This document shows, piece by piece, positions 9,233 through 58,844 of a stretch of 64,000 bases of DNA. Every line of letters begins with the position of its first letter. The first letter of the stretch is position 1. Below the pieces are notes generated by a model. It was not told where the DNA came from. It saw nothing but the letters and a program-made list of their open reading frames with translations, and did not search any database. Origin of the DNA: Carex sylvatica (Eukaryota > Streptophyta > Magnoliopsida > Poales > Cyperaceae); the NCBI GenBank assembly GCA_964058845.1, contig CAXKVR010000001.1, positions 62,001 to 126,000 of the forward strand, read 5' to 3'. Made by a program: the position numbers and the translations under genes.

Positions 9233-9579
9233 TTCTTTTATAGATTTTCATGCGACTGAGTCGGGAGAGGCACGCGAGTAGTAAGCCTCCGGTATATGTT
9301 ACCATTACCTCAATAGTTGTTTTGTTATTTGACTAGAAATGTATATATTGATTTTGTTGTATAACTCTCTATGTCATACCTGATGGTTGGTATCCGTATG
9401 AGATACCTTTGATATGTTATACTTTTACTAGTCTCGTGTACTTGGATCATTATATACAAACTTGTTTTAAATTATTTTGTTGTGTTGTGATGTGTATAAT
9501 TTATATTGCCTTGTAAGCACACATGGAGTTGTATGATTATGGCGGGGGCCCTGTCACGACCTGGCCGCGGGTTGTGACA

Positions 9580-24640: not shown

Positions 24641-25451
24641 TTTCGATTACATCAATGCAACAAGCCAGATAATTAATTAAAAGTTACAACTCATTTTTTT
24701 TACACTTTAAATTATACAAAATAAACATAATTGTATTATTTTTATGTAATAAGGAAACATTTATCAACTAAAAATCAATAACATTTATTTAATAAAAGGT
24801 CGAAATATATTAATCAAAGGTATAAATTAATTACCACTTGTCCTTGATTTTTTAAAATCTTTATTTGTTTTAAAATAATAATTTATTAAATTTTTATATA
24901 TGTGAATGTCTCTAATGCGAACAAAAAAATTATAGAAAAGAGCAAAAAAAAATATATGATGTAAGTATTAAAGTATAGATATAACTCTCGCGGCACTACG
25001 AGCATGGCCTAAATTCAATCATTGAAGCAAAACTGCTAAAATCCTATAGTATCTCAGAATAACAAATTACAAATGCAAAAGAAAAAAAAATTGCTAGTGC
25101 AAATTTGACCGTATACATTTTGTTCACACAAAAGCATATGGTACAAAGTTTCAGTACAGCAAGCTGTGCCTTTTAATCTTTAATACACCTTCGGTTCAGA
25201 CTGCAAGTGCACAGTCCTATCGAGTAGTATATCGTCGGGTATCGATCACAGGGACGGTACAAATCTAAACCGGACTCTACTTAAATCAGTTAAAAACTAG
25301 AAGTGAGAAATGGTTGGTTTTTGGTATTTAATTCCTAATCAGTTCAATAACAGTAATTAAATGAAAGACAGTAAATAAACTTAGTTTAAATCAATAATAA
25401 AAGGAGTTTCCAGGGTTTCAGACTTATCTCAGTTCTGCCTCTCAGTCCCTG

Positions 25452-25528
25452 ACACGGACCGTGTAGTTTCCTACACGGGTCGTATCAGCTTATACGAGTC
25501 GTGTACTGTCGTACACGGGTCGTGTGGA
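25452..25528. repeat. Array of four CACGGGTCGTG-type palindromes
   Basis: Central CG positions at 25455-25456, 25476, 25495 and 25516 give spacings of 21, 19 and 21 bp. The units are variants of ACACGGGTCGTGT. Confidence 0.85.
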
Positions 25529-26305
25529 CTTCGAGTTAATGCACCAGTCACTGTTTCTTTACATGGTTCCTTTGTGTAGGGTTCAACTGACCAGACCTAA
25601 TGTTTCTAAACCTCAACTGTCGTATGTTGGTTTGTTAACTTGGTATGAAATCTACAATATCTGCCCTCTTTGGGCTCTAAACCTCAATTGTCGTATATTG
25701 GTTCGAGTTACCAAGTTACTTGTTTGGAATACCAAAGGTAACCTCTTATCTGTCGATAAGAGAAAATGTTCACCTTTCGGCTACTAGTTGGTTTCCCCTA
25801 TCGGATCACTAATCCTACCTCATGTACTTAGTCTGGTTGAAAGATCAAATTGGACACAGTACCTTATAGATGTGGCCTCATCTAGTGGTCAAACCAAACA
25901 ATAATCAAGCAATTCAAACTAAGCAATTAAAATCAATCACAATCAACCAAACACAAATTTCAACGTAAAAATCCAATAACTAGATGCAAAAAAAAATATT
26001 CGATTATATCTTAATCCTATAAACTAATAAAACTACTCAAACATAGTACTAAAACAGATAACAAAGATAAAAGAATAAGAATTCATTCTAAAACCCGACG
26101 TACAAAGAAGATCCACAACAAAAACTCGCGTCTTTTGCTTCTCAACTTCGTCTCCAAGCAATAGCCGTCAATCTCTAACCCTAGAATTGTCTCTCTGCTC
26201 CAGAATGCCTTTCTGGTGCAAGAAATCCCGTCTTTATAGCCTAGGCCGACTTTCCTTCCATCAGATTTCTTTCCATAACTCTAGATCTCTTTTCGGATTT
26301 ATCTG

Positions 26306-31081: not shown

Positions 31082-32391
31082 TGTTGTAACTTGGGGGTCG
31101 GTTTAGGCACTCCTAAAACTGAAAATTAATGCAATTGAAAGTAAATAGATGAGTTTAGAGAAATTAACACTCGGAGTGATAACGGAGTTCGGCAAAATAA
31201 AGGCCTACGTCTCCGGGGCGTCGCAACCTCTTCTAAGTGAGCCTTTCTATTTACCCAATACGAAAGGTTTACAATTCGTGAACCGGCGAGCCCTTACAAC
31301 CAAGAGAAGTCACACGGCCAACAAGAGATGAGTGCCGGCGAGCCCTTACAACCAAGGGAAGTCACTCGAACAACTCGGGAAGGTGAGAACGAAGTCTCAA
31401 AGTAAAAATTTCCAAGAGAAATACTCAAAAGCTCACTCTAATCTAATCTAACTCAAGATTAGTGAAGTGGATTTGAGGTTGTTTGAGAGATATTGAAGTT
31501 TTAAGCTTCTACAACAATGGAGGAACCAAGCTCACAGAAAATAGGATTTTGCAGTTTAAAGAGGCGGCTAGGTTGCTTTGGGAAGAAATCCCAAAGCCCT
31601 ATTTATAGAAACAGCTCCAGAATGAGCAAATTGAGTTAAAACGTTACAACTTTTTAGCTCGATTTTAAATTTAGGTTTTCTTTTTCTGTGAAATCGTCCC
31701 AATCGTTACCAACGATTGTATAACGTTATGTAACGTTTTGCACTGACTCAAACTTGATCAAAAACAGAAATTTCCAAAGCACAGAATTAATTAAATCGTT
31801 ACAACGTTTATAAAAACGTTACAACGTTTATAAAAACATTACAATGTTTCATTTTGAATTCTGGTACAGCTGTGCTTACAGCTCTGACATGCTTTAAACG
31901 TTACAACGTTTTGTAAAACGTTGCAACGTTTAAGGGAGAATAGACAGATGTATTGAGCAGTTCTGAACTTCTCTAAAACGTTACAACGGTTGTAAAACGT
32001 TGTAACGTTTAAGGGAGAATAGACAGCTGTATTGAGCAGTTCTGAACTTCTCTAAAATGTTATAACGTTTCATAAAAACGTTACAACGTTTTATCTTGTT
32101 TTCTGAGTTTGATCAAACTATTCCTTCAGCGTTTCTGACAGGTCTAAAACGTTACCAACGTTTGTCCCCTGTTTAAACAAACTTAAATACACTTTACCAA
32201 GTCTAAGATTTTACAATTTATATTCTTGATAAGTGTTTTCATGATTTCTTCAATCCAAGTATTTCATATTGCAATTTCATTTGACTTGAACCTACATATC
32301 TTTCAAAACTAGAAGAAATCGTAAAATTCAATAATTGTATGTTTTTGCAAATTAGTCAAATAGACGAAAAAGATTATTGCTACAACCAACA
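31082..32391. mobile_element. Solo LTR inserted in the Copia LTR
   Basis: 1310 bp bounded by TGTTGTAACTTGG and CAACCAACA, with perfect 5-bp target duplication GTTAA (31077-31081, 32392-32396). The class is not recognised and there is no coding region. It contains a cluster of AACGTTACAACGTT palindromes at 31795-32170. Confidence 0.88.
31795..32170. repeat. AACGTT(R)CAACGTT palindrome cluster
   Basis: Multiple copies and variants of AAACGTTACAACGTTT (near 31797, 31819, 31907, 31977, 32075). Adjacent palindromes start about 19-20 bp apart. A long near-identical segment (GGGAGAATAGACAG...) around them is itself duplicated at about 31932 and 32011. Confidence 0.8.
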
Positions 32392-34244: not shown

Positions 34245-34343
34245 GGGATAGGATGGTAACCCGGCCCCATGTAAGCCCTATTGTGAACAGAACTAAGCTC
34301 CCCAACCTTGTTCTTAATTAATTGTGTTTTATTATAATTGCAG

Positions 34344-37300
34344 ATGGGCCGCAGTTGGATGTACGAAGTATCACGTCTATCTGATGAATATATGACATGT
34401 GTCGAGAAATTTATCATAGTTGCTACAGATATGGTGAATAAGGGGAGTGCACTGATGTCGTGTCCTTGTCGTGATTGTAACAATGGTAAAAAATTCTCCA
34501 ACTCGAACCAAGTGAGGAGCCATTTAATCCGTCGTGGATTGAAGCAAGGATATAAGTGTTGGTTATGGCACGGTGAGAGTTTGCCAACCGACATAGGTAC
34601 TGGTACTGAGCATCAGAAATACCATACTGGTGGAAATGACGGGAATGATCTACGGGGATTGGAAACTGATATAGGCGCTCGTACTGAGGATCAGGAATAC
34701 CATACCGAAGAAAATGATGATATGGTAGTAGATAGATGTGATAATTTTGATCAAATGTTATGTTATTTAGAAGAGGATTTTGATAATGATAAGCAGTATT
34801 ATTTATTTGAGAATTTGTACGAAGATTCTAATAAGGAATTGTATCCTGGTTGTTCTAAATTTTCAAAATTGAAAGGTGTATTAAAATTGTATAACCTTAA
34901 AGCATCTAACGGTTGGAGTGATAGAAGTTTTACTGAGTTATTACAAACTTTAAAAGAAATACTTCCGGATGGAAACGAGATACCACCAAATATTTATGAA
35001 GCAAAGAAAATATTGTGCCAAGTGGATTTGGAAGTTCAAAGAATACATGCGTGTCCAAATGATTGTATATTATATCGATCCGAGTATAAATATCTTCACG
35101 AGTGTCCAAAATATGGTGCATCACGTTACAAACCAAAACAGTTAATCGGCGATAAAAGTGATGATTACAAACCGAATAAAGGGCCTCCGGCAAAAGCATT
35201 GTGGTACCTTCCCGTGAAACCGAGATTGAAACGTTTGTTCTCAAATGCTAAAGATGCGAAATTAGTGCGTTGGTATGCCGATAACCGAAAAAAAGACGGG
35301 AAATTACGGCACCCCGCTGATTCTCCTCAGTGGAGAAATATTGACAGAGAGTTTCCCAAATTTGGACGTGACCCTAGATATCTTAAGCTTGGACTGAGTG
35401 CAGATGGAATACATCCGCACAGTAGCATGAGCAGCAAGCATAGCAGTTGGACGGTTCTACTGTGCATTTATAATCTTCCACCATGGTTATGTATGAAACG
35501 TAAATACATCATGTTGACCTTGCTCATATCAGGACCCAAACAACCCGGGAACGACATAGATGTGTATCTAGCGCCATTGATCGATGATTTAAAATAATTA
35601 TGGCAACCAGGAGTGCAGATATTTGATGCATATAGCAAGGAGAAATTCACTTTACTGGCCATGATTTTCTGCACCATTAATAATTTTTCGGCTTATGGAA
35701 ATTTGTCAGGTTACAGTGTCAAAGGAGAGAAAACATGCCCTGTTTTTCTGAACGATACAGTCGATGTGTGGCTATCTAATTCCTCTAAAAATGTGTACAT
35801 GAGTCATCGTAGATTTCTTCCTGCCAACCATGCACACCGAAAGAGAAAGAAAGAATTCAATAGAAAGACCGAGAATACCAGAGTAAATTATTCGTTGACC
35901 GGTAAATCTGTTTATTCGCCAGTGAACGATATCAAAGTTCAATTTGGAAAATTTTAAAAACAGGTGGTGAGAAAGAAAGTGGCACCGAAAATTAGTTGGA
36001 AGAAGAGGTCAATATTCTGGGATTTATCATACTGGCAGCACTTAGATGTTCGACACTGTCTCGATGTGATGCATGTGGTTAAAAATATGTGTGATAGCCT
36101 AGTTGAAACATTATTGAATATTTCGGGAAAGACTAAGTATGGTATCAATGCTCGGAAAGACATGCAATTCCTGAACATACGGTCGGATCTACAACCAACA
36201 GAGAAGGAAAGAGAAAATAGAAAATTTTGTACGTATCTAAAACCTGCAATGCATACGCTGTCGAAAGTAGAGAAAAAAAGGTTATTGGAATGCCTTCATG
36301 GTGTCAAAGTTCCATCTGGATATTCTTCGAATATTAAAAATCTAGTTTCACTGGAAGATTTAAAATTGATAGGAATGAAGTCTCACGACTGTCATGTTTT
36401 AATGACACAACTTCTTCCTGTTGCAATTCGGGACATATTGCCAAAGTGTGTTAAACAGACCATCACGAAGCTTTATTTTTTCTTTAATGCCATATATTGC
36501 AAAGTAAGTGATCTTGATATGCTAGATGCTCTGCAGAAGGAGATTGTTGTCACTCTTTGTCATCTTGAAATGTATTTTCCGCCGTCTTTTTTTGATATCA
36601 TGGTTCATTTAATCGTTCACCTAATTAGAGAAATTAAGATGTGCGGACCTGTTTTCTTGCGGTACATGTATCTGTTCGAGAGATACATGAGATTGTTAAA
36701 TGCATATGTCAGGAATCGATATCGGCCTGAGGTAAGCATCGTAAAAGTTTATGCTGCCAAAAAGGTTATTGAGTTTTGTACTAATTATATGGATGATGTC
36801 AAAGCTATCGGCATCCCTAAATCTTGGCACGAGGGTCGACTTCACGGGGTAGGCACAATTGGTGTGAAATTATTCGAGCCCGATAGTACAACGATGTCAC
36901 TAGCACATTTCCATATTTTGCAACACCTCACTGACGTTCATCCTTTTTGGGACGAGCATATGACTCTCTTGCGGCAACAGAATCCTAAAAAATCCGACAA
37001 GTGGTTAATCGGCGAACACAATAAAAAGTTTGAAGGATAGTTTACACGTAGAGTCGTGGAAGCTCCGGAGGGAGAAAATATTACAAAAACTATCAAATTG
37101 TTGGCTTCTGGTCCAGTCCACATCATGAGGACCTTCCAAGGATATGACATCAACGGGTACACATTTTACACAAGAAATCAAGATTCAAAGAGTACCGTGC
37201 AAAACAGTGGAGTGACGTTAGTAGCCGTTTCGAGTGATTTGTCAGATCCTAAAGGTGCCGGACCATCGCATGCATCAATGTCATATTACGGGTTTATTGA

Positions 37301-40307: not shown

Positions 40308-42878
40308 TGTCACACCCCGAAACCAGGGGGCGCGACAGTTACGCCGTGAATATATATTATCTATATACTCACGAGGCATGAACAATGAGATGATTCATAT
40401 TCATCCCAATTTTTACCCAAATAATTTAACCATTTCAGACACGCAGTTAATTGCAATCAGATAATTAAAACACATCCTACTTACAACACCTCCTACTTAC
40501 AACACCTCATACTTAACGAATTAAACATTTACACTACATAATTAAAATAAGTTTTACAAAGGTCTGGTTCAAAGGTTATACACAACAAAATATGATCTGA
40601 GTACTTAACTAGTACAAAACGATCATTAATTAAGGCATATCTATACCTCTCCTTTCTTCTCCTCGCCGCACGATCTCGAGATCCTATTCCTTGTTTCCTG
40701 AAAAACCCACGAAGGGGAAAAGGGGTGAGAAACTTATTCGCAGTTTCTCAGTGCAGAATTTAAATAGGGCTACTGGATTTGTAAGAAATCCATTATCAGA
40801 ATTAAATCGATTCATTAGTATACTATTCAGTTATTTATTCGCTAATCATGAAATGCAATTACTTTAAAAGGAAATTCAAGCGAACTTCTACTATTATCAC
40901 ATTTGGAGAAAATCAAAACGGAATTATTCAGGATGTTTGGACCTAAATGCAAACTCTCTAAGTCAGGTTGGAAAGATAGAAATCAGTTATCTATCTTTGT
41001 CGGCTTCACCGTTCTATTAGTTCTGGTTCATAATTAAACATGCATATCAATCAAAATTTCACGATTAGCAATAAAGTAATTCAATCAGAAACAAAGATTA
41101 TCAATACAGTAACAGTTTCACATCAATCACTATACCACAGTTCAGTATTCACAATAATATATGTAATAACAGTATCCCCTACCCAACTGGTACTGGGTTC
41201 AGTGGGGTCATTCCCCAAATGCGCATATGGTTCCTGAGGCAAAGTCTAGCGTCGACTTTAGACTTTGCAATAACTATGATATAATATAACAATATCAGTT
41301 CAGTACTGTGGTTTCATTCGCTTATCAGAATCAAAGGAACAATCAATCAGTAAAACCATACCAATATGCTAGGTCATCATCAATATAGCAATTTCAATAT
41401 AACATTTACTTAATTATGCAATAATGCCATGATGCATGCAATTAGAAATTCAACATGCCATTTATACGTAACTATTTAATTCTTGAAAATAAATTCCAAA
41501 ACAGATCCCGTGAACCCCCGCACCTGATCGTGTAAGATGCGTAGAGAATCAGCTATCACTAGATTCCGAACTTCCGACGATTCCGCCAAGTCGTGCTCGA
41601 TAGGGTCTATGCCTATGTTAACATAGCATAGGTGAATTAATAAATTAAATTCCTATGAACTAAGTAAATCTTATAAAATAAGTTTCTCAAATCAAATCCG
41701 ATATTTCTCATATGGCCGGCCCTATACTCAAAATTTCATCATTTTACATCTAGGCTCTTGCACTTAATTCATTTACACAATTTAGGGGTAATTTGCATAT
41801 CAAATCCTAAACTTTTAAAATCTCGCAAAATGGTCCCTGTCAGTTCAAGGGCTGGTATGCACACAAATTCAGCACCATACCAGTAGTATACTGGGCTGGT
41901 ACCAGCACAACAACACAACACAGCCAAGCAACAAGCCAGACCAGCAAAACAGAGAACAAGTACAAGTCAAGGCAACAAGTCAAAGGCAACAGAACCAGCA
42001 CAAATACACCACGGATTCAACACACACAATCGCAACATAGCCAAGCACAAGCAAGACCAGCGAAACAGAGAACAAGCACAGGTCAAGGTAACAAATCAGA
42101 GGCAAACAGAACCAGCAAAACACAACAAGGCAAGGCACAACAAGACAGAACCAACCCAAATCAGGGCCTTCGCCGAGAAAATCAACAACCCGAGCAAAGA
42201 CAATTAATCTAATCGAAACCCCACAAGACAACATCAACCAATTTAACGGGATAACTCGAATTCTTACCCGATTAGAGCTAGCACGGAAATGGAGAAAGCA
42301 AAACGATCGTCAGAAAATCGAGCACCAAAACAGCACAACAAGCACCCGAATAGCAACAACAAGCACAGCCAAAACGCGGCTAGGGTTTTCAACTTCCCAA
42401 CACTCAAGAACCAGAAAATGGCGAGAGAGAGAGAGATATCAAAGCCTCAACACATGAGAAAAAAGAGAATAAAGAGAGAGAGCACAAAAGGGAGAGAAGA
42501 GAGAACTCCTCTTTTTTTTTTTTTTTTCTTTTCTTTGGCGGAGCAACACAGAGAGAGGGGCGAACAGAGAGGAACGAACGGGAGAGAAAGAGAGAGAGTA
42601 AGTCATTTGGCCCCTTTTTGCTAATAAGTCCCTCCCTTTGTTTAATATTACGTAACAGGGAAAATTAATACCTCTAACCCCTCATATAAACATATATCTA
42701 CAACTTAGGTTATTCATTCTACAATTTCAAATCGGATATATTTATAATTCGATTCTTGACGCCTTAACTCAATCAGTCAGTATCAAAATATTTCCAAACA
42801 TTATATTTTTAACTTTTAAAACTATATTTAATCTAATCTTTTGAAATCTTATTATTTTAAAAGTTTCACTACGTTACA
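40308..42878 (+). mobile_element. Solo LTR, Ty3 chromovirus-like
   Basis: 2571 bp starting TGTCACACCCCGAAACCAGG and ending CTACGTTACA, with perfect target duplication AAATG (40303-40307, 42879-42883). It lies between the two CACTA genes. The start resembles the minus-strand start of the LTR at 7846-9579. A weak palindrome group (GCTGGTATGC, GCACCATACCAG, GCTGGTACCAGC) lies at 41852-41908. Open frames 41980-42237 and 42289-42624 are low-complexity parts of this LTR. Confidence 0.9.
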
Positions 42879-44776: not shown

Positions 44777-44945
44777 TGATATCTCCATATTATATCTAAT
44801 TTATGGCCCTAATTTACAATGAAACCTGTGCTTTAAAGCCTATGAATGTGGAATTTTTACTTATATTTCGATGAAATGTGGTACTGCTATGCTTTGTTTG
44901 GTATTTTGCAGGAAAAAAGGCGAAAAACTGGTTCTGACTACTTTT

Positions 44946-45081
44946 CATACGGCCCGTATGATATTCTGTACAGGCCGTACAAGAACTGCCCAACCACACA
45001 GAAGGATCCACAACAGAGGCACAAAGTCTCCAAGTCAAAGCCCAGGCATACGGTCCGTACGGGATCTCGTACGGGCCGTAC
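44946..45081. repeat. Two palindrome pairs in the 5' LTR
   Basis: TACGGCCCGTAT at 44948 pairs with TACAGGCCGTAC at 44969. TACGGTCCGTAC at 45049 pairs with TACGGGCCGTAC at 45070. Spacing is 21 bp in both. Confidence 0.9.
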
Positions 45082-45892
45082 AATGCTGATTCGGAAAATC
45101 CAGCTGGAATCTGAATTGAGCACGATTTGAGGAGCCGAAAAGGAAACCCTTCCAGGCGTGATCTGGGGCATTAAAGGAGATATTCCACAGCAGGAAAGGG
45201 AATTAATAGGCAATCAATCAATAACATTCGATCAGATTGATTCTATCATTCATTCTTACTAGGTTTTGAACAAGAGGAAAAGAAGAAGAGAAGGGAAGAA
45301 CGCGAGTTTTGAACGGATCTTCGGATTTTCCACTGTTTTATCATGAACTCTCTTATTTCTTGTTATTTGTGTTATCCTATGAACATGAGTAGCTAATTTA
45401 CTTAGTTTCTAGGGGTAAGATGTAGTTTCTAGTTTAGCTTTGCTTGTATGCTACTTGGATTTTGTGTTGAACGCTTTGTTTTTACTTTGTTATGTAGTAT
45501 TTTTATTGCTCTATTTGTGCTTGCTTGAATCTGATTAGTCATCCCGTTAGATGAATGCGCACATCTAAGTGTAGGAGCCAAGTCTATGAAATTCATTCCA
45601 ACCGAATAAAGTATATGAAGTAGGGTTAAACCAAGGAGTACCCGAAAGGCGAAACTTTCCTTGAGGCGAAAGTCCTTGGATACTTTTAATAAACTAACAA
45701 GTAACTTAGATAAATTAGGCCAAAATGCGAAAGTTGAGGTTTAACGCATCTAAGAGGGAAGTATTTGAGTCCGGTAATCGGGTATCAGGCCAAAATGCGA
45801 AAGTTGAGGTTAGGTATCTAGATCTGGTCAAAAGAAACCCTAAACACAGTATCAACACAGAAAACAGTAGCTGCAGCATTAACTTGAGGTCC

Positions 45893-45928
45893 CATACGGA
45901 CCGTACAGGAATCTGTACGGGCCGTATG
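45893..45928. repeat. Third palindrome pair in the 5' LTR
   Basis: TACGGACCGTAC at 45895 and TACGGGCCGTAT at 45916, 21 bp apart. Confidence 0.9.
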
Positions 45929-46249
45929 CCTTGAGACTGAACAGAAATGAAATCTGAACCCTGGAAACGCCCTTTTATCAATTGGAAACAACTTTAATTA
46001 CCTTTTATTGTCTTTTAATCAGTAGAATTGTTAGAACTAAAACCAAACCAATTTCTCTCACTTCTAGAATCTTAAGTGATTTTAGGATAAGTCTAGTATT
46101 TTTATTCCGTCCCTGTGGATCGATACCTGAGCATACTCAACGACAGGATAGTACACTTGCTATCTGAATTGACAGAGTATAACAAAGGTTTAAAAAGTAT
46201 AGCTTGCTATACTGAGACTTTTTGGCATATTCTCGTGCGATCAAGTTTT

Positions 46250-46267
46250 TGGCGCCGTTGCCGGGGA
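46250..46267 (+). other. Primer binding site, tRNA-Asp type
   Basis: TGGCGCCGTTGCCGGGGA lies six bases after the 5' LTR. It is complementary to the 3' end of plant tRNA-Asp, the primer used by Athila-type elements. Confidence 0.92.
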
Positions 46268-46453
46268 CGGCAACTAAAATTCTATACTTTTTCTTATTTT
46301 TGCTTGATTCTAGATTTTAATTTTAATTTTTCGTATTCCATCTTTGCAGGAACATACTGGAAGAGTCACTGCCCAAGAACCACTACCATCTCAGAAGCAA
46401 AGGGCAAACTTCCATCTCATTTGTTCCAGCGCCACCACATCTGTCACCTCTCC

Positions 46454-46486
46454 GTACGGCCCGTACAAGATTCATACGGCCCGTAC
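46454..46486. repeat. Palindrome pair before gag
   Basis: TACGGCCCGTAC at 46455 and again at 46475, 20 bp apart, about 40 bp upstream of the gag ATG at 46528. Confidence 0.9.
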
Positions 46487-47963
46487 AAACCGACAACAGA
46501 GGCCAGACAGATCCAGAACAAAGTGAAATGAATGACCACGGAGTTGAACAAGATCCACTCAACGATGGTACTGGACAAGGTCCGACCAACGAGGATCAAT
46601 ACTCTGATGACGAAGGAGCAAATTATGCGCCAAGGACGTTGCGAGAGTTCAATGTCCCAAGAGCTGGAGATGTTAGAGGAGCAATCCGATTGCCAAGGAT
46701 TGTCGGCAACCAACCCAACTTCAATCCGGGCGTTGTCAACATCGTGCAGCAAAACACATTCAATGGCATGGATCATGAGGATCCGCATGCCCATGTTCAA
46801 ACCTTCCTCGAATGCTGTGCCACCATTAAAATTAATGGCACAACAGCTGATTATATTAGACTTGCTTTATTTCCTTTCACTCTTAGGGATAAAGCCAAGA
46901 AATGGTTAGGGTCATTACCAAGGGATTCAATCACCACTTGGAGGGAATTGTCCAAACTGTTTTTGACCAGATTTTTCCCCCATAAAAGAACTGCCAAGGT
47001 TAGGACCCAACCTACCAGTTTTAGACAAAGGTCTGATGAACCACTGAATGAGGCCTGGGAAAGGTTTAGGGAATTGCAATACTCTTGCCCACATCATGGT
47101 ATTCCCGAATGGTTACTCATTCAATCTTTTTATGCTGGTTTAACTGATACCACTCGTACTTCTGTAGATGCAGTTGCAGGTGGAGCTCTCATGGATCGAG
47201 ACGCTACTGAGGCAATAACCTTAATCGACAATATGGCGACTAACCAACAGTGGTCCGGCCGAGAGGGTAATCGAGCAACTGGAGGAGGCCGACTTGAGGT
47301 CGATCAGATCACCGCTCTCACCGCCAAGTTGGACGCCATGCAGAAAGCTTTTGACAAGATGAGTGTCAAAGCACTTGGTAATCAGCAATCACAGTCTTGT
47401 GTTATGTGTGGAGACGAAGGGCACGAGTATGAGAATTGCCCGCTTGCGCAAATGGATGAAGGGCCCGAGCAAGTTAATTCTCTCAACAGTGAACCATCCT
47501 ACTTCCCAAAACCTCCTTTCAGCCGTACCTATTCCAAGGACCCGATTGAACAACAGAATTGGAGGTGGAAGCAGAACAATCCCACACAATTCAACAACAA
47601 CCCTTCTGGCAGCAACAACAACAACCGCAACTTCTACAACAATGCTGCATTCAATAACTCAAACAACCGACCACCATATTCTGGACCATCTAAGCCCTAT
47701 GTTGCCCCTGCAGTAGAAAACTTCATGCATGAACAAGGGAAGATGAATCAAATGCTTTTCGAACAGATGCAAACGATCAGTGCTCAATTGGCGAGTTTGG
47801 CCCAAAACAAACCTCAAGGTGGGAGCCAAACCGTACCACCACAACCTGGAATGCTACCAGGTCAACCAGAAATTAACCCCAGGGGAGAGGCCAAAGTGGT
47901 AACATTGCGAAGTGGGACACAGTACCAAGGACCAGCCATACCTGTCGAGCCAGTGATGGCGCG

Positions 47964-50061
47964 TGACGTTTACGCTAAAAAGTTTCAGTACAATGAGATG
48001 TACCTTTTAAACCTTAAATGTTTTTGAGTCTAATTGCAAGTGTACAATTATATCAAAGTAGTATTTGAGGTATCGATCCACAGAGAGTATGGAAAATACT
48101 TAGTTTTAAACCCTAAATAATTAATTTCAGTAAATAATAATAAAGTAAAGTGCAATAAAGTAAAGTAAATGGGGGGTTGTTTAAGTAATCCTAAAGTTTG
48201 GGTTCAATACCCGAAAGAGGAATTTTAAACAATTAAAGTAAATAAAAGTAAAAGAAAAGTAATCGGTTTGCTTTCAAGATTTAAAGATATAGGGGTCTTT
48301 GGTCTACAATCCCTTGCTAATTCTATCTATTCGGTATTTGCTTGAATTCATGTATGATTTGACGAGGTTTCTAACCTAATATGCTATTAAGGGTCACTTT
48401 CGTGAATTAATAACGTGTCTAGGTAATTCGGACTTCACGATTAGGTCCTTCACCCTAGCTACCTAGACCATAAGCTCTTGTTAGTCTCTCCTCTCCTCGA
48501 GTATTGGTACTTCTCAATAAAGTCCATGATACCAATATCCGACTTGATTTGAGATGTCCTAATTAGGGTTTGACTTCACGGTTAGGTCCTTCACCAAGTC
48601 CCTAATCTTAATTTCTATAGTTCCGGCTTAGATTAAATTGGTTAGAATCTTAATCTAAACCTAGGATATTTGCATTCATAATTGGTACTATCCTATATGA
48701 TCCTAGTCAATTTTAGTTCTTTTGAAACTAAAACGGAATACTACAATTCAAGTACTAACTATGTAATTAACACAAATTATAAAATCACAGAAATTAACAA
48801 TCAAATCCCATATAACAATCATAATAAAAGCAAATGACCAAATAAAATAGAATTAAACAAGTTCATGCATGATGACCTAAACCCCTAGAGAGAGAACTAC
48901 TCCCTCTTGGAGAGATCCATTACAAAAATTGGCAAAGTAAGAAGAAATGAAATAAAAGAAGCAATTACACCCTTTGACAGATCCAAGACCTCTATTTTGC
49001 CGAATCTTGCTTAGGAAGCCCTTCTTCTCCTTGCCTAAAAGCTTTCCTTACTCCAGAATTTATCGCTAAGTGTGTGTGTAAAGAGAGAATGATGGTGTGT
49101 TGGTTGATGTGAGATTGAATGATCCATGAATGGGAAAGGACTCTCCCTTTTATAGCCAAGGATTATGCCCGATTTAGAGGCTAGAAGGTGGGGTTAGTGG
49201 GTGCTCTGTTTAGCATTACTTCCCTGGCAAGTAAGTGTATTTCTGACAGTAAAAACGCGTCCATAAAGCGCCAAAAATAGAAAAACTGTCAAACCGGACA
49301 GTTATTGGCTTTCTACGGGTCCAGTGCGGATGGATGACCCGCACTGCGGGTGGCTTCACCCGCACTGCGGGTGGCTTCACCCGCACTGGGACAAGTTTCC
49401 TTATTTAACTTCTGCAAATTTCTCTGGCTGCGGATGGCACTGCGGATGGATGACCCGCACTGCGGGTGGATTCTGTGCATTTCTGAAGTTGCTGAAATCG
49501 ACCAAGTCCTCAATACGGCTGGGCTCATCCGCACTGCGTGTGGTTCACCCGCACTGGGAAGAATTTTTCATCATTTTTCATTTTTTATTTTCTCAAGTTG
49601 TAGATCTTCTCGTTGGCTTTCCGAAAAGTGGTTATATGTCCAAAACGGAGTTACGAGTCAAAAGTTGTGGCCGTTTTAAGTTCAGACTCCATTTTTGCAG
49701 TTCTGCTACAGTGCGTCCGCACTGGGCTCGGACTTTTTCTGTTCGACCAGTGTGCGGCTGCATCGATATCCGTGCATCCGCACGGATCTTGACGAATAGC
49801 TTATTATACCTTTTTAAAATTGGCGCGCGTCCAGAAATCCATCTAAGTACTCATTACGACCATATCGTAAACCGTGCGTCCGCATTAGGCATTTTTCTTC
49901 GTTTTTCTTCATTTTTCTTTGTTTCCTGCAAATTGAAACCAAACAAATGCAGTAACTTGATTCTAGGTGTATTCTATTCTCTTTATATTCAAAATACAAG
50001 ATAATTGGTGTTATTTCATAATAAAATCTAGATTAAATGTGTATATAATTTATGCTTATCA
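47964..50061 (-). mobile_element. Athila-like LTR inserted in gag
   Basis: About 2.1 kb with the same block order as the solo LTR 4927-6847 (AAAGTTTCAGTACA, GGTTCAATACCCGAAA, ATAAGCTCTTGTTAGTCTCT, TTATGCTTATCA). The minus-strand start TGATAAGC is clear at 50061. The other end is uncertain: TGACG at 47964, or after GCTAA at 47977. A clean 5-bp target duplication is not seen; GCTAA/GCTAG is the closest. There is no retroelement coding region. It holds a regular 20-21-bp palindrome array at 49324-49392. Confidence 0.8.
49324..49392. repeat. GTGCGG palindrome array
   Basis: Starts at 49325, 49345 and 49366, spacing 20 and 21 bp. Two units are identical TGCGGGTGG...CACCCGCAC palindromes 21 bp long. 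Further degenerate copies lie at about 49430-49465 and 49515-49560. Confidence 0.88.
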
Positions 50062-50074
50062 GCTAGAAGCCGAT

Positions 50075-50210
50075 CATACGGTCCGTACGAATCCCATACG
50101 GCCCGTACCAACACCCCCTGCGATTTCTGAACAGTCAAAGCCTGATCCGATTGAGGTTGTGACTGAGACAACAGACCATACGGTCCGTACAAATCCCGTA
50201 CGGCCCGTAC
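50075..50210. repeat. Two palindrome pairs at the gag-protease junction
   Basis: Pairs at 50075/50095 and 50177/50197, each CATACGGTCCGTAC followed 20 bp later by a TACGGCCCGTAC copy. The 20-bp offset places the two members of a pair in different reading frames. Confidence 0.92.
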
Positions 50211-50454
50211 CGAATGAAACTGATAAACAGAAAAAGAAGGTGACCGAGAAACCACCGCCCTACCGGTCACCAGTACCATTTCCACAGAGATTAGCCGAAA
50301 CCCGACTCAATGAACAGTTCTCAAACTTTCTTGGAGTTCTCAAGCAATTGCACATTACCATCCCATTCACCGAGGCTTTGACCCAAATGCCAACCTATGC
50401 TAAGTTTCTCAAAGATATCCTATCCAATAAACAAAGCTTGGGGGGCATGAGACG

Positions 50455-52362
50455 GTGAAATTGACCGAGCAGTGCAGTGCCATCCTGAGAAATGAACTTC
50501 CACCGAAATTGGGAGATCCGGGTAAATTTTCCATTCCATGCACAATTGGCAAAGCAACCATCCGACAAGCTTTATGTGATTTGGGGGCTAGTGTGAGTCT
50601 CATGCCACGAACTATCTTCGAACGAATGGGTGTAGGCGAGCTTAGACCTACACGGATGACTTTACAACTTGCGGATTCTTCGGTGAGACTACCACTTGGC
50701 ATAGTGGAGGATGTACCGGTTCGAGTCGGTAAGTTCTATGTGCCCGGTGATTTTGTTGTGATGGAAATGGAGGAAGACAAGGAGGTCCCTATCATTCTAG
50801 GACGGCCATTTCTGAGAACAGCAGGAGCGCTGATTGATGTGAAAAATGAGACTTTAACCTTGAACATTGGAGATGAGAAAGTTCACTTCCAAATCGACCG
50901 AGCAATGAAGTATCCCGCTCAACCCGAATCGTGTTATATGGTCGATGTGATTGATGAATTAGTTGAAGAGAAGTTAATGGAGCAAATCAACAACTCTCTA
51001 AGGTATCATTCTGATTTTTTATCTGATTTGCAGGCTGAAACAGGCGATCTTGAAACAATTTGCGCAGCAGACATGACATCTGTCTGTCTGGAAGACTCAC
51101 CGTACGGACCGTACACATATCATACGGACCGTACACCAGACGAATTTCAAACAGAGAAGCTGGAGATTGAGAAGGAACCAAAAAGCCAGTCTGAAGCTGA
51201 GGCATACGGTCCGCACGAAATCCATACGGCCCGTACAACAAGCCAGACAGCACAGACCACTCCCAAATTAAAACCTCTCCCAGCCACTCTCAGGTACGAA
51301 TTCCTTGACTCAGAAAAGACATATCCCGTCATTGTGAATGCAGGATTGACACCTGACCAAACCGCCAAGCTCATGGAGAAGTTGAGAACCCACAAAGGCG
51401 CGATTGGATATTCTATCAAGGACTTGAAGGGGATCGATCCAACCACTTGCACACACAGGATCTTGCTAGAAGATGACCACAAGCCTTCAGTTGAACACCA
51501 AAGACGGCTCAACCCGAATTTAAAAGAGGTAGTAAAAAAAGAAATTTTAAAACTTTATGAAGCAGGTATTATCTACCCGATTTCTGGCAGCAAATGGGTG
51601 AGTCCCGTCCATGTGGTTCCCAAGAAAGGAGGAGCAACAGTGGTGAAAAATGAGAAAGATGAGATGATTCAAACGCGCGTTGCAACCAGTTGGAGGATGT
51701 GCATAGACTATCGGAAGCTCAACGCGGCTACACGCAAGGATCACTTTCCCTTGCCATTTGTTGATCAACTCCTTGAGAGGCTTGCTAACCACTCATATTT
51801 TTGTTATCTTGATGGTTATTCAGGTTTCTTTCAGATTCCCATTCACCCGCAGGATCAAGAGAAGACCACATTCACATGCCCATACGGTACCTACGCATAC
51901 CGTAGGATGCCTTTCGGTCTTTGCAATGCACCTGCGACTTTTCAGAGAGCCATGATGGCTATTTTTTCTGATTTTATTGAGAAAGAAGTTGAAATTTTTA
52001 TGGATGATTTTTCTGTATACGGTACCTCTTTTGATGCTTGTTTGGCTAACTTGTGTAAGATTTTGCAGAGATGTGAAGAAGTCAATTTAGTCCTCAATTG
52101 GGAAAAATGTCATTTCATGGTCCAAGAAGGAATTGTCTTGGGGCATGTTATCACCTCTAGAGGAATCGAGGTTGATAAAGCAAAAATTGAGATAATCGAG
52201 AAACTCGAAATCCCAACAAATGTCAAGGGGGTTCGAAGTTTTCTTGGACATGCCGGTTTTTATCGCCGTTTCATAAAGGACTTCTCAAAAATTGCGAAAC
52301 CTTTGACCAATTTACTTATCAAAGATTCTGATTTTATTTTCACTGATGATTGTGTCCACTGA
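50455..52362 (+). pseudogene. Athila pol part 1: protease and reverse transcriptase
   Basis: The frame enters from upstream of 50455. The apparent start is not an ATG, and the true product would be part of a gag-pol polyprotein. The aspartic protease carries CDLGASVSLMP (about residues 41-51) and an IILGRPFLRTAG flap-side motif. A variable linker with two palindrome pairs follows (51101-51236). Reverse transcriptase begins near residue 365, with WRMCIDYRKLNAATRKDHFP, YAYRRMPFGLCNAPATFQRA and the catalytic FMDDF at about 515-519. The end is abnormal: a 16-bp tandem duplication at 52341-52372 shifts the frame and gives a stop at 52360, before RNase H. All visible catalytic residues are present, but the downstream domains are uncoupled. 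Confidence 0.93.
51101..51236. repeat. Two palindrome pairs between protease and reverse transcriptase
   Basis: Pairs at 51101/51121 and 51203/51223, spacing 20 bp. They are translated as YGPY/HTDRT and YGPH/HTART, that is, in different frames. Confidence 0.92.
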
Positions 52363-54301
52363 TGATTGTGTCAAGTCCTTTTGCAGTTTAAAGGAAGCTC
52401 TTATCTCTGCACCTATTTTACAACCGCCAGATTGGTCACTACCATTTGAGTTGATGTGCGATGCAAGCGACTATGCAGTCGGAGCAGTTCTGGGGCAATG
52501 GAAAGACAAAAAGCCGTGTGTTATTTACTATGCTAGCAAGGTGCTAGATCCGGCCCAAATGAACTACACCACAACCGAAAAGGAGCTCCTCGCCATCGTA
52601 TTTGCTCTCGATAAATTCAGATCATATTTGGTGGGCTCGAAGATAGTGGTCTACACAGATCATGCCGCACTAAGGTACCTTTTAAGTAAAAAAGATGCAA
52701 AACCAAGACTGATTAGATGGATTCTTCTTTTGCAGGAGTTCGATCTTGAGATAAGAGATACGAAAGGAGTCGAGAACTCTGTAGCGGACCATCTGTCACG
52801 TCTTCATTGGGAAGAAGATACCACAACTAAGCTCCCAATCAATGACTCATTCCCCGATGAACAACTCCTTGCAATCAGTTCTGATCTGGACGACATCCAT
52901 ACGGGCCGTACAGAAGTTCATACGGCCTGCACTATCCACCATACGGGCCGTACACAAATTCATACGGACCGTACAAGTACCAACCAGTCCAAACAGCAAA
53001 CTCCCTGGTATGCCGATATCGCGAATTACCTGGTCTCTGGAGTTTTGCCAGCCACAATGTCCCAACAACAGAAGAAGAAACTAAGGTCGGATTCCAAGTA
53101 CTACTTCTGGGACGAGCCCTACCTCTTCAAGGTTGGAGTTGATGGCGTATTCCGACGCTGTATTCCATTCGAGGAGATTGATTCTATTCTTGCACATTGC
53201 CACTCGTCCGCTTATGGAGGACACTCTTCATTCTCCAAGACCACTGCCAAGGTATTACAATCTGGTTTCTTTTGGCCTTCTCTTTTTAAAGATGCAAGAT
53301 CTTTTGTTATAGCTTGTGACAGGTGCCAAAGAACCGGAAACATGACGAGACGAAGTGAGATGCCCCTCAACTTTATTCTTGAGGTTGAGGTTTTTGATGT
53401 ATGGGGCATCGATTTCATGGGTCCATTCCCCTCTTCTCAAGGGAATGAGTATATTTTGGTGGCAGTCGACTATGTATCAAAGTGGGTTGAGGCAATGGCA
53501 TGCCGCAAAGCTGACTCGAATTCGGTAAGGAAGTTTTTCAATGAGATCATTTTCCCTCGTTTTGGGGTGCCTCGAGCTGTCATTAGTGACGGAGGCAAGC
53601 ATTTCATCAATCGACAATTCAAAAAACTCTTGAGCCGACATGGGGTGACTCACAAGGTATCAACTTCTTATCACCCTCAAACTAATGGCCAAGCTGAGAT
53701 TTCTAACAGGGAAATCAAGTCGATTCTAGAGAAAACAGTCGCAAGGACAAGGAAGGATTGGGCTTTCAAGCTGCATGATGCACTTTGGGCCTACCGCACC
53801 GCCTTCAAGACACCGATTGGCATGAGCCCTTACAAGCTGGTGTATGGAAAGCCGTGTCACCTTCCCGTTGAAATTGAGCACAAGGCATTTTGGGCCATAA
53901 GAGCGATCAACATGGACTTGCTTGCAGCTGGAGAAAAGCGTGTCCTCGACTTGCATGAGCTGGAGGAAATGAGGTTGCATGCGTATGAGAATGCGAAGTT
54001 TTACAAGGAAAAGACGAAGCGATTGCACGACCAACGCATTTCGCCTCGCCATTTCAAAGAGGGAGACCTTGTACTTTTGTTTAATGCTAGATTGAGAATT
54101 TTTCCAGGTAAACTCAAATCAAGATGGTCCGGCCCATTTCAAGTGGAGAAAGTGTACCCTTTCGGAGCAGTTGATATCTGGAGCAAAGAAAGCGGGACTT
54201 TCAAGGTAAATGGTCAGCGTCTCAAGCACTACGTTGCTGACCACTTGATGAATGAGCGGTGTGTTCAGTTTCTTTCTGACCCCGCTCCGATGGAAGCTTA
54301 A
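52363..54301 (+). pseudogene. Athila pol part 2: RNase H and integrase
   Basis: This continues pol in the shifted frame. RNase H has [33 protein letters not shown] and [13 protein letters not shown] linker with four palindromes at 21-bp spacing follows. Integrase has an HHCC zinc domain ([19 protein letters not shown]) and the D,D-35-E core: [17 protein letters not shown] and [10 protein letters not shown], with exactly 35 residues between the last two acids. A C-terminal domain with [14 protein letters not shown] and [16 protein letters not shown] ends at 54301. The catalytic residues are complete. Only the frame break upstream marks it as a pseudogene. Integrase would insert the cDNA into nuclear DNA. 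Confidence 0.93.
52898..52974. repeat. Four palindromes at exact 21-bp spacing inside pol
   Basis: CATACGG-type palindromes start at 52898, 52919, 52940 and 52961. The second is degenerate (CATACGGCCTGCAC). The 21-bp period keeps one frame and encodes a seven-residue period around HTGRT. Confidence 0.95.
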
Positions 54302-55077
54302 GTTGTGAGGTGGTCTAGCTAAAGACCTAAAACGAGCGCTTCTTGGGAGGCAACCCAAGCATTTTCATTTCTCTTATTATTACTTTAGTTTCTGAATATT
54401 TAGTTTGATATTAATTTAATTTGAATTTTTCATTTTGTAGTCTTGTTTAAATTCTGATCAGATAAGAGCAACAATCAATTTTGGGGATTGGTACGGCCCG
54501 TATGAAAACCATTCGGCGCAGAATCTCAAGGGGCGCGACCTTCTCCCTTCGCGTTCCTTCAACTTGAGTCCCTTCGACTGGACCCTCTTACCCTTTTAAA
54601 CCCCATTCCACCCCGATAGAACCTACCCCACACCACCAACTTTTGTCGTTTTCTTCCTACGGACCGAACACCACCCCGTACAACCAAAACCCTAGCCGCC
54701 GCCACTTCTCCTCCGCTGTTTTTCGCCTCTAGCCGCCCACCGACCGTCCACTCTCCACCCCTTTCTCTCCGCCTCTAGCGGATCGCTGCGCCCTAACCAG
54801 CCGCCGCTCTCACCTCTGCACCGCCACTTCTCTCCTCCACCGGTCACCATCTCTCGCAGCGCACCACTACCCTCGGCGCTGACACCTATTTCTACCAAGC
54901 CACCGACCCGTACAAAGTTTCAACAGCCGCCTCCGACCAAACCCTACCAGCCACCTCCTTTCCCTCTGAACACACACCAGCCCTACGGCCCGCACAAAAA
55001 CCATCCAGCCCGTAGCGCTACACCCGTCCGACCCGTACAAACCCTCATCCGGCCCGTACCAGTAACAACTGACAACC
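54302..55077. other. Spacer between pol and the downstream ORF
   Basis: Contains GTACGGCCCGTATG at 54491 and a run of decayed half-sites (CCGACCCGTAC near 54904, CTACGGCCCGCAC at 54983, CCGGCCCGTACC near 55049). It is C-rich and otherwise featureless. Minus-strand frames here are composition artefacts. Confidence 0.7.
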
Positions 55078-56412
55078 ATGTCTGGTGAGCGCCGTCAAAA
55101 GCGACGACAGGACCGCTCCCCCACACCACCCCGTCATCCCTCCCCGGAGCCCTATGACTCTGGCTCCGAACGAACCTCCTCTGGCGAATACACCGACCGC
55201 GCCGACCGCTTCGCGGCACGGTATTTTGACATGTCCACTCGTCGGATGTACGAGAATTTCATCTCTTTACAAAAAAGGGTATTCGAGAACACTGCCATGG
55301 TTCACTTCGACACACTCCACAGTTTTGGAGTGCAAGATGATTTCATCAGCCTCACCGCTCGAATTGGGTTTGGCCAGGAATTCTGGACCCTCCGCCATCC
55401 CGCCTACGAGATGGACACCAAAGAATTCCTCTCCTCTCTCGAGCTGAAGTTGGACAACCAAGATGTCCTCTTCATCAAATTTCGGCTATGTAATCAAACC
55501 CATCGCGTCTATCTCTCCTCTCTACGCGAATGGTTCAGTTTCAACAGTCAGCCCACTACCGACACCCTCAGTTTCCGAGAGGGATGGGATCGCGATACCT
55601 TCTGGGCCATGATCACCGGCTGCCCTCGATCAGCCAACGCCTCCTACCGCGCCCGCTACATCCCTCACCCCACTCTTCGGATCATCCAGCGTGCCCTTGC
55701 TTCTACCATATTCGCGCGCGGTGAGACTCAGAACCGCGCCAACACCATCGACCTCATGCTCATGGACACTATGCTCCGTTCCATCCCCGAGTATCCGGAC
55801 TTGGCCCTTCTCATGGTCCATCACTGGCTTGGGCAGCAAGCCAAGAACAGGCCGGGTGGGAAGATCAAAATTGGAGCCTATGTCGAGGTCATCAAGCAAC
55901 GCCTCGGATTGGGAGCGTATCCGGGTCGGGACATATGTCCTGGCCCTACTCTTCTGGATCCTGAGAGCTTTCGCCAGGCCCTTTTCCTCTCTATCTCCCG
56001 AGGACCCGCCGGTCACTCTGACTACTATGAGTGGCGCTTTGCCGATGGCTCCTCCCGCCGCCTACCATTTGGACCATCCATCTGCGTGGAGGATCCCTCC
56101 ACCTGGTTGGTCTCTGCGACCTCACATCCTGCCTCTGACATTCCCAGTACCTCTTCCCAGCCACCCACCTCTGCGTATTCCCGTCCTTGCCTAGCTGACC
56201 CCTCTCTTAGGGATCTCTATGCCCTCATGACTGACATCCGGGCCACTCAGCTGCAGCAGGACCGCGACATCACAGCCATCCACCAGCAGACAGCTACTCA
56301 CACCACTCGACTGGATGAGATTAATGGGTACATGGCTGACTATGCCGAGCGCCTTGGTGACATCGAGGACCAGTTTCGCGACTGGCGCTTCGACCCCTCC
56401 TCTGACTGTTGA
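55078..56412 (+). CDS. Athila post-pol ORF (env-position protein)
   Basis: An intact 444-residue frame from ATG 55078 lies in the position of the Athila envelope-like gene. The N-terminus is basic and Ser/Pro/Arg-rich (GERRQKRRQDRSPTPPRHPS). The core resembles the Athila ORF-1 family: RMYENFISLQKRVF, FGVQDDFISLTARIGFG, FLSSLELKLD, FIKFRL. A Ser/Pro-rich region follows at about residues 345-370, then a predicted coiled coil (about 385-435). I see no clear signal peptide or membrane span, so an envelope function is not supported by the sequence. Its GC content is higher than that of the surroundings. It is the only Athila ORF here without a visible break. Confidence 0.8.
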   Translation: MSGERRQKRRQDRSPTPPRHPSPEPYDSGSERTSSGEYTDRADRFAARYFDMSTRRMYENFISLQKRVFENTAMVHFDTLHSFGVQDDFISLTARIGFGQEFWTLRHPAYEMDTKEFLSSLELKLDNQDVLFIKFRLCNQTHRVYLSSLREWFSFNSQPTTDTLSFREGWDRDTFWAMITGCPRSANASYRARYIPHPTLRIIQRALASTIFARGETQNRANTIDLMLMDTMLRSIPEYPDLALLMVHHWLGQQAKNRPGGKIKIGAYVEVIKQRLGLGAYPGRDICPGPTLLDPESFRQALFLSISRGPAGHSDYYEWRFADGSSRRLPFGPSICVEDPSTWLVSATSHPASDIPSTSSQPPTSAYSRPCLADPSLRDLYALMTDIRATQLQQDRDITAIHQQTATHTTRLDEINGYMADYAERLGDIEDQFRDWRFDPSSDC

Positions 56413-57377
56413 TCAGGTTTTTCCTACCCCAGCTTATTTACTTTTCCATTACACGTCTTGAAGCATTGGGGGCAATGCTCAGACTAAGCTTGGGGGGGTG
56501 ACTCGTTATTTTCTTTGTTTTTGCATTTAGTTTGTTTTTGTGTTTGCATATTTTCTGTGTGAATTGCGTGAAATAGGGTCAATTTGAGAAATTTTGGTTG
56601 TGAAATGGTTGAATTTGAGAAATTGGAAATAACCACACATTTGGTTGAAAGAATTGTAAACGATAGTCTGTTTTGGGACTTTGTAGAATTGAATTGAATT
56701 GTGCCAAGAAAGCATTTGAAACCAGAATATGCCTTGTCAAAATAGAAAAATGGGATTTCAAAACAATAGAAAGATTTGGATATCCATTGGTATGAATGAA
56801 TATCATTGGATGTGTGTATTCATGATGTATACAAGGATAAAAGATAAAAATATTCTTGAAAAGAATGAAAAGATGGAGAATATAAGAGTACTGGCAATAA
56901 GCCATGATTTGGCGCCTTTGAGCTCGTCTCCCATACGGACCGTACCAAATTTTATACGGGCCGTACACCTAAAAAAAATGGTGCCTTTACATACATCAAC
57001 ACACTAAGTCCGTGACCTTTCTGACCTAAGCTTGTTCCAAGCTTGGGGGAATTCAAAGAAAAACGAATCACCACAAATGAGGGCATAAATTTGGTGAAAG
57101 AATGAACTATTGATGCGTTTGATTTCTTAGTTCTTACAAATAGCAATTCATTCTTGAAGATAGGGTTTGATCAATTGAATTGTGGGGTGAATCAAGTTGA
57201 CCAAAGGAAACCAAGTTATTGTCCAAAATAACTCTAATAGACTTCTAACGAACACAAGATCATGCACATTTTTCCTCTTAGTAGATTAACCTGCATTTAG
57301 GTAAGTCCAACAACCGAAACCACACCTAAGTTAGAATTTTTGCTTGAGGACAAGCAAAGTTCAAGCTTGGGGGAATT
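56413..57377 (+). other. 3' untranslated region with polypurine tracts
   Basis: The motif AAGCTTGGGGG occurs at 56486, 57039 and 57363. The last, AAGCTTGGGGGA, directly precedes the 3' LTR and is the likely polypurine primer. A palindrome pair lies at 56932-56966. There is no reliable coding region. Confidence 0.85.
56932..56966. repeat. Palindrome pair before the 3' LTR
   Basis: TACGGACCGTAC at 56934 and TACGGGCCGTAC at 56955, 21 bp apart. Confidence 0.9.
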
Positions 57378-58844
57378 TGATATCTCCATATTATATCTAA
57401 TTTATGGCCCTAATTTACAATGAAACCTGTGCTTTAAAGCCTATGAATGTGGAATTTTTACTTATATTTCGATGAAATGTGGTACTGCTATGCTTTGTTT
57501 GGTATTTTGCAGGAAAAAAGGCGAAAAACTGGTTCTGACTACTTTTCATACGGCCCGTATGATATTCTGTACAGGCCGTACAAGAACTGCCCAACCACAC
57601 AGAAGGATCCACAACAGAGGCACAAAGTCTCCCAGTCAAAGCCCAGGCATACGGTCCGTACGGGATCTCGTACGGGCCGTACAATGCTGATTCGGAAAAT
57701 CCAGCTGGAATCTGAATTGAGCACGATTTGAGGAGCCGAAAAGGAAACCCTTCCAGGCGTGATCTGGGGCATTAAAGGAGATATTCCACAGCAGGAAAGG
57801 GAATTAATAGGCAATCAATCAATAACATTCGATCAGATTGATTCTATCATTCATTCTTGCTAGGTTTTGAACAAGAGGAAAAGAAGAAGAGAAGGGAAGA
57901 ACGCGAGTTTTGAACGGATCTTCGGATTTTCCACTGTTTTATCATGAACTCTCTTATTTCTTGTTATTTGTGTTATCATATGAACATGAGTAGCTAATTT
58001 ACTTAGTTTCTAGGGGTAAGATGTAGTTTCTAGTTTAGCTTTGCTTGTATGCTACTTGGATTTTGTGTTGAACGCTTTATTTTTACTTTGTTATGTAGTA
58101 TTTTTATTGCTCTATTTGTGCTTGCTTGAATCTGATTAGTCATCCCGTTAGATGAATGCGCACATCTAAGTGTAGGAGCCAAGTCTATGAAATTCATTCC
58201 AACCGAATAAAGTATATGAAGTAGGGTTAAACCAAGGAGTACCCGAAAGGCGAAACTTTCCTTGAGGCGAAAGTCCTTGGACACTTTTAGTAAACTAACA
58301 AGTAACTTAGATAAATTAGGCCAAAATGCGAAAGTTGAGGTTTAACGCATCTAAGAGGGAAGTATTTGAGTCCGGTAATCGGGTATCAGGCCAAAATGCG
58401 AAAGTTGAGGTTAGGTATCTAGATCTGGTCAAAAGAAACCCTAAACACAGTATCAACACAGAAAACAGTAGCTGCAGCATTAACTTGAGGTCCCATACGG
58501 ACCGTACAGGAATCTGTACGGGCCGTATGCCTTGAGACTGAACAGAAATGAAATCTGAACCCTGGAAACGCCTTTTTATCAATTGGAAACAACTTTAATT
58601 ACCTTTTATTGTCTTTTAATCAGTAGAATTGTTAGAACTAAAACCAAACCAATTTCTCTCACTTCTAGAATCTTAAGTGATTTTAGGATAAGTCTAGTAT
58701 TTTTATTCCGTCCCTGTGGATCGATACCTGAGCATACTCAACGACAGGATAGTACACTTGCTATCTGAATTGACAGAGTATAACAAAGGTTTAAAAAGTA
58801 TAGCTTGCTATACTGAGACTTTTTGGCATATTCTCGTGCGATCA
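57378..58844 (+). repeat. Athila 3' LTR
   Basis: Same ends and length as the 5' LTR, with seven substitutions and no indels. The three palindrome pairs are conserved (57547, 57648 and 58494). Confidence 0.97.

Follow-up and report, generated by a model that had tools for sequence, protein, structure and literature searches.

Why would a retrotransposon carry the same short palindrome, in pairs about two helical turns apart, at one module boundary after another? The question arises from a 64,000-nucleotide stretch of the Carex sylvatica genome (contig CAXKVR010000001.1, positions 62,001 to 126,000; hereafter the window), where an Athila-lineage Ty3/gypsy element at 44777-58844 contains such pairs in its long terminal repeats (LTRs), its leader and most of the linkers between its protein domains. 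An earlier note made from the sequence of the window had listed them, and all of the pairs it listed are present, at coordinates 0-2 bases downstream of those it gave. We conclude that the arrays are probably operator sites for a putative dimeric, sequence-specific DNA-binding protein.

Dyads conserved as DNA along the element

The repeated unit is a dyad, the two-fold symmetric 11-mer TACGGNCCGTA, whose half-sites read CCGTA and whose central base is free. The window contains 25 exact copies, all within 44948-58517, and none in the remainder of its 64 kb; 200 runs of a first-order Markov simulation of the element gave 0.01 exact dyads on average and never more than one. Sites with at most one mismatch number 31 in this copy of the element, and up to two mismatches to the 12-mer give 71 strand matches in the window versus 3.6 expected, with a few of these lying outside the element.

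Three pairs lie in the 5' LTR, each with a spacing of 21 bp: 44948/44969 (44948-44979; second member with one mismatch), 45049/45070 (45049-45080) and 45895/45916 (45895-45926). The same three recur in the 3' LTR at 57549/57570, 57650/57671 and 58496/58517. The leader has a pair 20 bp apart at 46455/46475 (46455-46485), 3' of the primer-binding site region, and a pair with a spacing of 21 bp at 56934/56955 (56934-56965) lies 5' of the 3' LTR. Within the open frame, the gag-protease linker (50077-50209; 50077/50097 and 50179/50199) and the protease-reverse transcriptase (RT) linker (51103-51235; 51103/51123 and 51205/51225, the third member with one mismatch) each have two pairs in a 20-82-20 arrangement, and the RNase H-integrase linker (52900-52973) has four dyads at 21 bp (52900, 52921, 52942 and 52963), the second with two mismatches. 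Between pol and the last open reading frame (ORF) we found the decayed copies that the earlier note described, at 54658, 54984, 55004, 55027 and 55048 (54658-55058), but also a lone exact dyad at 54492-54502. There is no dyad between RT and RNase H in the window element, so the sites occur at most module boundaries rather than at all of them. In each of the four-site arrays at 44948-45080, 50077-50209 and 51103-51235, the first and the last dyad start 122 bp apart (21-80-21 or 20-82-20), and the sequences between the pairs are unlike by eye.

Other copies of the family have the same sites. Ten of them contain 24-33 sites with at most one mismatch, except for one with 41, whose stretch also includes sites beyond the element, and the sites recur at the LTR, leader, gag-protease, protease-RT, RNase H-integrase, pol-ORF and pre-3' LTR positions. 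An exact pair between pol and the last ORF is found in six of the ten; two copies (C16 and C1) have no 3' LTR sites in the stretches studied, and one of these also lacks the pre-3' LTR pair. The earlier note had proposed that family copies be aligned and the pairs compared with neutral linkers. With 8-18 matching stretches per region, after Blast hits covering <80% of the region were dropped, diversity is 0.020 in the arms (230 columns), 0.054 in other nearby columns (1528) and 0.160 at the centre (23), such that the arms do vary less than the linkers. The difference is also seen within the three coding linkers at third codon positions (0.017 in arms versus 0.087 in others; permutation p 0.0005) and at CpG columns (0.016 versus 0.099; p 5e-5), although these p values are indicative, the copies being mutually related. 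At second codon positions the difference is not significant, and the leader pair taken alone shows none. By region, arm diversity is 0.008 in the gag-protease linker, 0.013 in the protease-RT linker, 0.009 before the 3' LTR and 0.018-0.020 in the LTR, and higher in the RNase H-integrase linker (0.032) and the leader (0.042); a shorter left flank was used for these values, and an alignment pass that dropped Blast hits with <85% coverage left no gag-protease hit. Members 20 bp apart lie in different reading frames and encode unlike peptides (YGPY, HTDRT and IRPVP), so the encoded peptide is not what is kept. The dyad arms are conserved as DNA, inside the polyprotein frame too.

Spacing is strict as well. 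The 64-Mb host assembly contains 401 TACGGNCCGTA pairs with 0-30 bases between the dyads (11-41 bp apart), and 400 of these have 9-10 bases between them, a spacing of 20-21 bp; the peak at about two helical turns that the earlier note had predicted is thus a genome-wide property of the word. The control word TCGGNCCGA forms six pairs genome-wide, at 14, 16, 18, 32, 41 and 42 bp, and none at 20-22 bp. For phasing we used arrays entered by hand, mismatch-bearing sites included. They give 43 adjacent distances of 19-22 bp (2, 12, 15 and 14, respectively), and the 26 longer distances between neighbouring pairs (32-91 bp) have a best period of 10.1 bp within 6-16 bp (R 0.55; jitter p 0.001, whole-range p 0.01; 0.0036 and 0.026 without homologous arrays). 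The LTR subset (n=12) also gives 10.1 bp; the coding subset (n=5), which is too small to use, gives 8.0. Lastly, in a motif-free scan, 161 of 181 single-centre palindrome pairs had a spacing of 20-22 bp, versus one pair in block-shuffled sequence. That scan covered stretches chosen around these elements, with many related copies, and hence speaks to the rule and not to its share of the genome.

Other words in related and unrelated elements

Related Athila families retain position and spacing with altered arms, namely CACGR-N-YCGTG, TTGCGGNCCGCAA and GTGCGG half-sites. Family B (RT 88-90% identical to that of family A, to which the window copy belongs) has words of the CACGGACCGTG and CACGACCCGTG types. 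Families A and B are 74% identical over 2.6 kb, yet their sites share alignment columns in the protease-RT and RNase H-integrase linkers, the arms having changed together from TACGG to CACGG; not every arm is perfect in family B, nor is position four of its RNase H-integrase array. The window itself holds two LTR-like B-type copies, at 18951-19905 and 25121-26081. In family C (RT 82-84%), the protease-RT linker carries TTGCGGNCCGCAA, with more arrays downstream. Genome-wide, and in more than one lineage, TTGCGGNCCGCAA forms 48 pairs, of which 43 are at 22 bp, three at 21 bp and two at 40 bp. For CACGGNCCGTG there are 49 pairs, 41 at 40 bp, five at 20 bp and three at 21 bp; the 40-bp pairs, among those listed, have a further related site in between. 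Three distant Athila copies (L031, L034 and L035) have, by eye, AGTGCGG and CCGCACT half-sites in the protease-RT linker. Palindromes of another type in one stretch (L030; ACTGTTTTTCGAAAAACAGT) were set aside, that stretch being unlike the other copies. One family A copy has, on its upstream side, a further palindrome pair of the GATGCGAGTCGCATT type with a spacing of 21 bp (L025:1716-1751).

A Rhynchospora breviuscula protein repeats the 7-residue peptide CAVAPDP, equivalent to 21 bp, in its protease-RT linker, and an R. pubera protein has a longer repeat there. Among 30 homologous protease-RT linkers, compared as proteins by eye, repeated peptides were found in these two Rhynchospora and in none of the named eudicots.

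The TTGCGGNCCGCAA arrays are reused in the LTRs of a chromovirus-type element, an unrelated lineage. On contig C360, eight TTGCGGNCCGCAA sites (at most one mismatch) occur twice in one arrangement, 8.2 kb apart, flanking an RT 39% identical to our query; the frame contains an integrase and a Tf2-1 SH3 domain, as well as a Chromo match that at 21.7 bits falls short of the 25.1 cut-off. In a second element (C91; RT 41%), eight such sites follow the integrase frame and five, similarly spaced, lie ~7 kb upstream. For a third (C36; RT 41%), the motif-free scan gave no palindrome pair spaced 19-22 bp; hence, the feature is not universal. The chromovirus-type LTR stretch on C360 (L038) is, in addition, 70% alike to window positions 41165-41525.

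The host element and its surroundings

Assignment of the element to Athila, made in the earlier note, agrees with its domain order, extra ORF and LTR structure. Its LTRs (44777-46243 and 57378-58844, 1467 bp, forward strand) begin with TG and end with CA, are 99.5% identical (7 substitutions/1467 sites) and are bounded by a 5-bp target duplication (TGTAC), and a purine tract precedes the 3' LTR. On the same strand, Pfam matches follow the Ty3/gypsy order of gag, aspartic protease, RT, RNase H and integrase: a gag frame, stop to stop, at 46327-48027 (PF03732), a protease and RT frame at 50431-52362 (PF13650, PF00078), and an RNase H and integrase frame at 52307-54301 (PF17917, PF00665). Between pol and the 3' LTR, the last ORF (55066-56412, forward) matches the ATHILA ORF-1 family, PF03078 (E 2.6e-16, 60 bits, cut-off 20.2). 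The window copy has, relative to other copies, a surplus of ~2.1 kb between leader and gag-protease (~47976-50061), of which 47976-48913 and 49576-50061 are similar to window positions 4943-6847; within it, ACCCGCACTGCGGGTGGCTTC is a 21-bp unit present in 2.5 copies (49337-49388). Its polyprotein frame is interrupted, and other copies with a 1949-residue open frame exist. Among 120 relatives listed for the pol frame, those of highest identity over at least 90% of the query are two Rhynchospora proteins (69% and 67%).

Elsewhere in the window there are further repeats. A palindrome, AAACGTTRYAACGTTT, occurs in nine near copies at 31794-32092, 19-21 bp apart within pairs and 60-62 bp between them; genome-wide it forms 52 exact pairs, all but one at 19-22 bp among the pairs listed. 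Pieces of a CACTA-type transposase (Transposase_21, Transpos_assoc, DUF4218) lie at 34338-37037. We considered whether AAACGTTNNAACGTTT arrays belong to the nearby CACTA transposase, but this did not hold up as a general link, since by eye a tnp2 match is missing, among those listed, from the vicinity of most of the listed arrays. A very long 81-bp tandem repeat occupies several blocks of 1289-17644 and is inverted near 19907-20234.

What may read the arrays

A dimeric DNA-binding protein, which the earlier note had listed among possible explanations, is the best class of explanation. Each TACGGNCCGTA would be a site for a homodimeric protein that recognises the CCGTA half-sites and leaves the central base free. 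Neighbouring dyads, two helical turns apart, would present the same DNA face, making cooperative binding possible, and with arrays in the leader, in both LTRs and at most joins between domains, such a factor could coat or loop the element lengthwise. The outcome may be transcription activation or protection from silencing, by analogy to VANC acting on VANDAL transposons or to proposals made for the Sirevirus motif. The factor may come from the host or be supplied in trans to several lineages, given that one word serves both Athila family C and a chromovirus-type element; with the word present in chromovirus-type LTRs, we regard this as the more likely source.

It is also conceivable, if somewhat doubtful, that the element encodes its own factor, with the PF03078 ORF product binding the word of its family in the manner of VANC in VANDAL transposons. 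In the copies studied, the last ORF is 51-52% and 32-33% identical to that of family A where RT is 89-90% and 82-84% identical, and the words likewise differ by family. PF03078 was found in all 16 members of our alignment of this ORF, together with Transposase_32 in one, and the modelled protein (55078-56409; predicted local distance difference test score 73, with low confidence at residues 1-43 and 347-375) has a long C-terminal coiled coil (residues 377-437). A Foldseek search with the model gave no match at E 0.001, and a second look gave no confident match to a DNA-binding fold, an outcome that speaks neither for nor against DNA binding. However, rapid divergence is common in such ORFs, and the TTGCGG word sits in chromovirus-type LTRs too, in an element whose 3.8-kb integrase-to-LTR piece contains no second frame of at least 150 residues. 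We consider it unlikely that the dyads are host transcription-factor sites and nothing else, serving as LTR enhancers with the internal copies as by-products. A single word common to unrelated lineages would fit such a role, as would the GGNCC cores, which we take to resemble sites of TCP factors. Sirevirus palindromes, too, are described in LTRs, upstream of the TATA box (PMC2829016). Nonetheless, arms in most internal linkers, the RNase H-integrase linker and the leader excepted, are as invariant as those in the LTR, and the unlike words of sister families in one host would need several factors or a tolerant one.

The earlier note had also suggested that the two members of a pair can form a stem with each other, in RNA or DNA, with RNA packaging or processing as possible roles; such an RNA hairpin or DNA cruciform might equally serve dimerisation. 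Of ten window pairs that were folded, nine do score better than the majority of their shuffled versions (z -2.1 to -5.7; -0.45 for the remaining one), and LTR pairs form extended stems (z -4.3 to -5.7) with spacer ends mostly 2/3 complementary. Mutual folding is, however, automatic for palindromic direct repeats, and the central bases are complementary in one of 100 intact pairs versus 24.6 expected (three of 102 with later loci; loci L001-L008, which overlap others, were left out of these counts), a depletion that is only suggestive if taken as independent events, since about ten distinct locations lie behind the pairs, but that lends no support to a maintained full stem. Spacers in the linkers mostly fail to extend the stem, loop length is nearly invariant where a hairpin loop could vary, and the helical period reaches distances between pairs as well. 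We therefore think it quite improbable that such pairing explains the arrays, although LTR pairs may have a hairpin role of their own. Least probable is that the palindromes are functionless, neutral or selfish repeats that slippage or segmental duplication has spread through tolerant linkers. In L029, the only family B copy whose gag-protease linker is intact, a ~100 bp extra segment brings one pair more than in family A, so that pairs can be gained or lost with segments; but the arms withstand CpG decay and are kept at third codon positions, and spacing is constant although the spacers are unlike.

The arrays can be set beside known systems. The earlier note knew of no named element with this design, which is only partly right: Sirevirus elements have a repeated motif (Bousios et al., 2010; PMC2829016), a palindrome with a CGG-CCG core in 12 of 13 elements (for example, CGGACCGTCCG in HOPIE), and that study reports no such motif in the classic Ty1/copia elements it used for comparison. 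As the passages on that motif describe it, Sirevirus palindromes resemble the dyads in having CGG-CCG cores, many copies per element, element-specific outer arms and locations in LTRs and upstream of an extra gene (PMC2829016). Indeed, TACGGNCCGTA has a CGG-CCG palindrome core and its 25 exact copies exceed the Sirevirus figure of at least 8 per element. What is new here is the Ty3/gypsy setting, by domain order, as opposed to Ty1/copia; sites in the leader and in three linkers of the polyprotein frame, where the Sirevirus motif is placed in the LTR, the linker domain and the ENV start, outside gag-pol; a strict 20-22 bp spacing, which is not part of the motif's description there (PMC2829016); and the concerted, family-specific change of arms. 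The one Sirevirus-type word searched, CGGTNNGACCG, forms no pairs in this genome.

Two DNA transposon systems offer parallels. VANDAL transposons, as portrayed in the pertinent sections of two papers, have short motifs along one family, words that differ between sister families, synchronous change, and an unrelated element affected via a shared word (PMC5735166, PMC10398659). By contrast, VANDAL is Mutator-like whereas the dyad host is a retrotransposon with RT and LTRs; VANDAL motifs are chiefly noncoding, with "palindrom" absent from the main text of PMC5735166, and their binder VANC is known where the dyad factor is putative. En/Spm, likened here by description only, has an element-specific repeated motif and an element-encoded binder, TNPA, that acts in trans on other copies; unlike the dyads, its motif (12 bp in En-1) occupies the subterminal regions of a DNA transposon (PMC2613891). 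Our literature searches, mostly judged from titles as listed, turned up the Sirevirus reports and, among the papers listed, none of such arrays in Ty3/gypsy elements; eight texts bear one of six exact words, of which the six listed look unrelated by title and abstract start, and the exact word pair was not found in IMG/VR viral contigs.

To our knowledge, sequence-specific evasion of silencing by plant LTR retrotransposons is little understood. The worked cases compared here are DNA transposons. The arrays show DNA words conserved within a polyprotein frame, and they offer a compact collection of putative operator sites in which the palindrome words of a single genome, at least three in number, serve as natural variants and the spacing rule can be mutated. 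If the operator reading holds, family C of Athila should answer to the same factor as some of the chromovirus-type elements. More tentatively, helically phased palindrome arrays, in coding linkers as elsewhere, may constitute an operator code shared by retrotransposons of this genome, with family-specific words reused across unrelated lineages. A diversifying dimeric factor would then recognise each word and keep the elements active. If so, families would be trans-activation groups set by word, not by ancestry.

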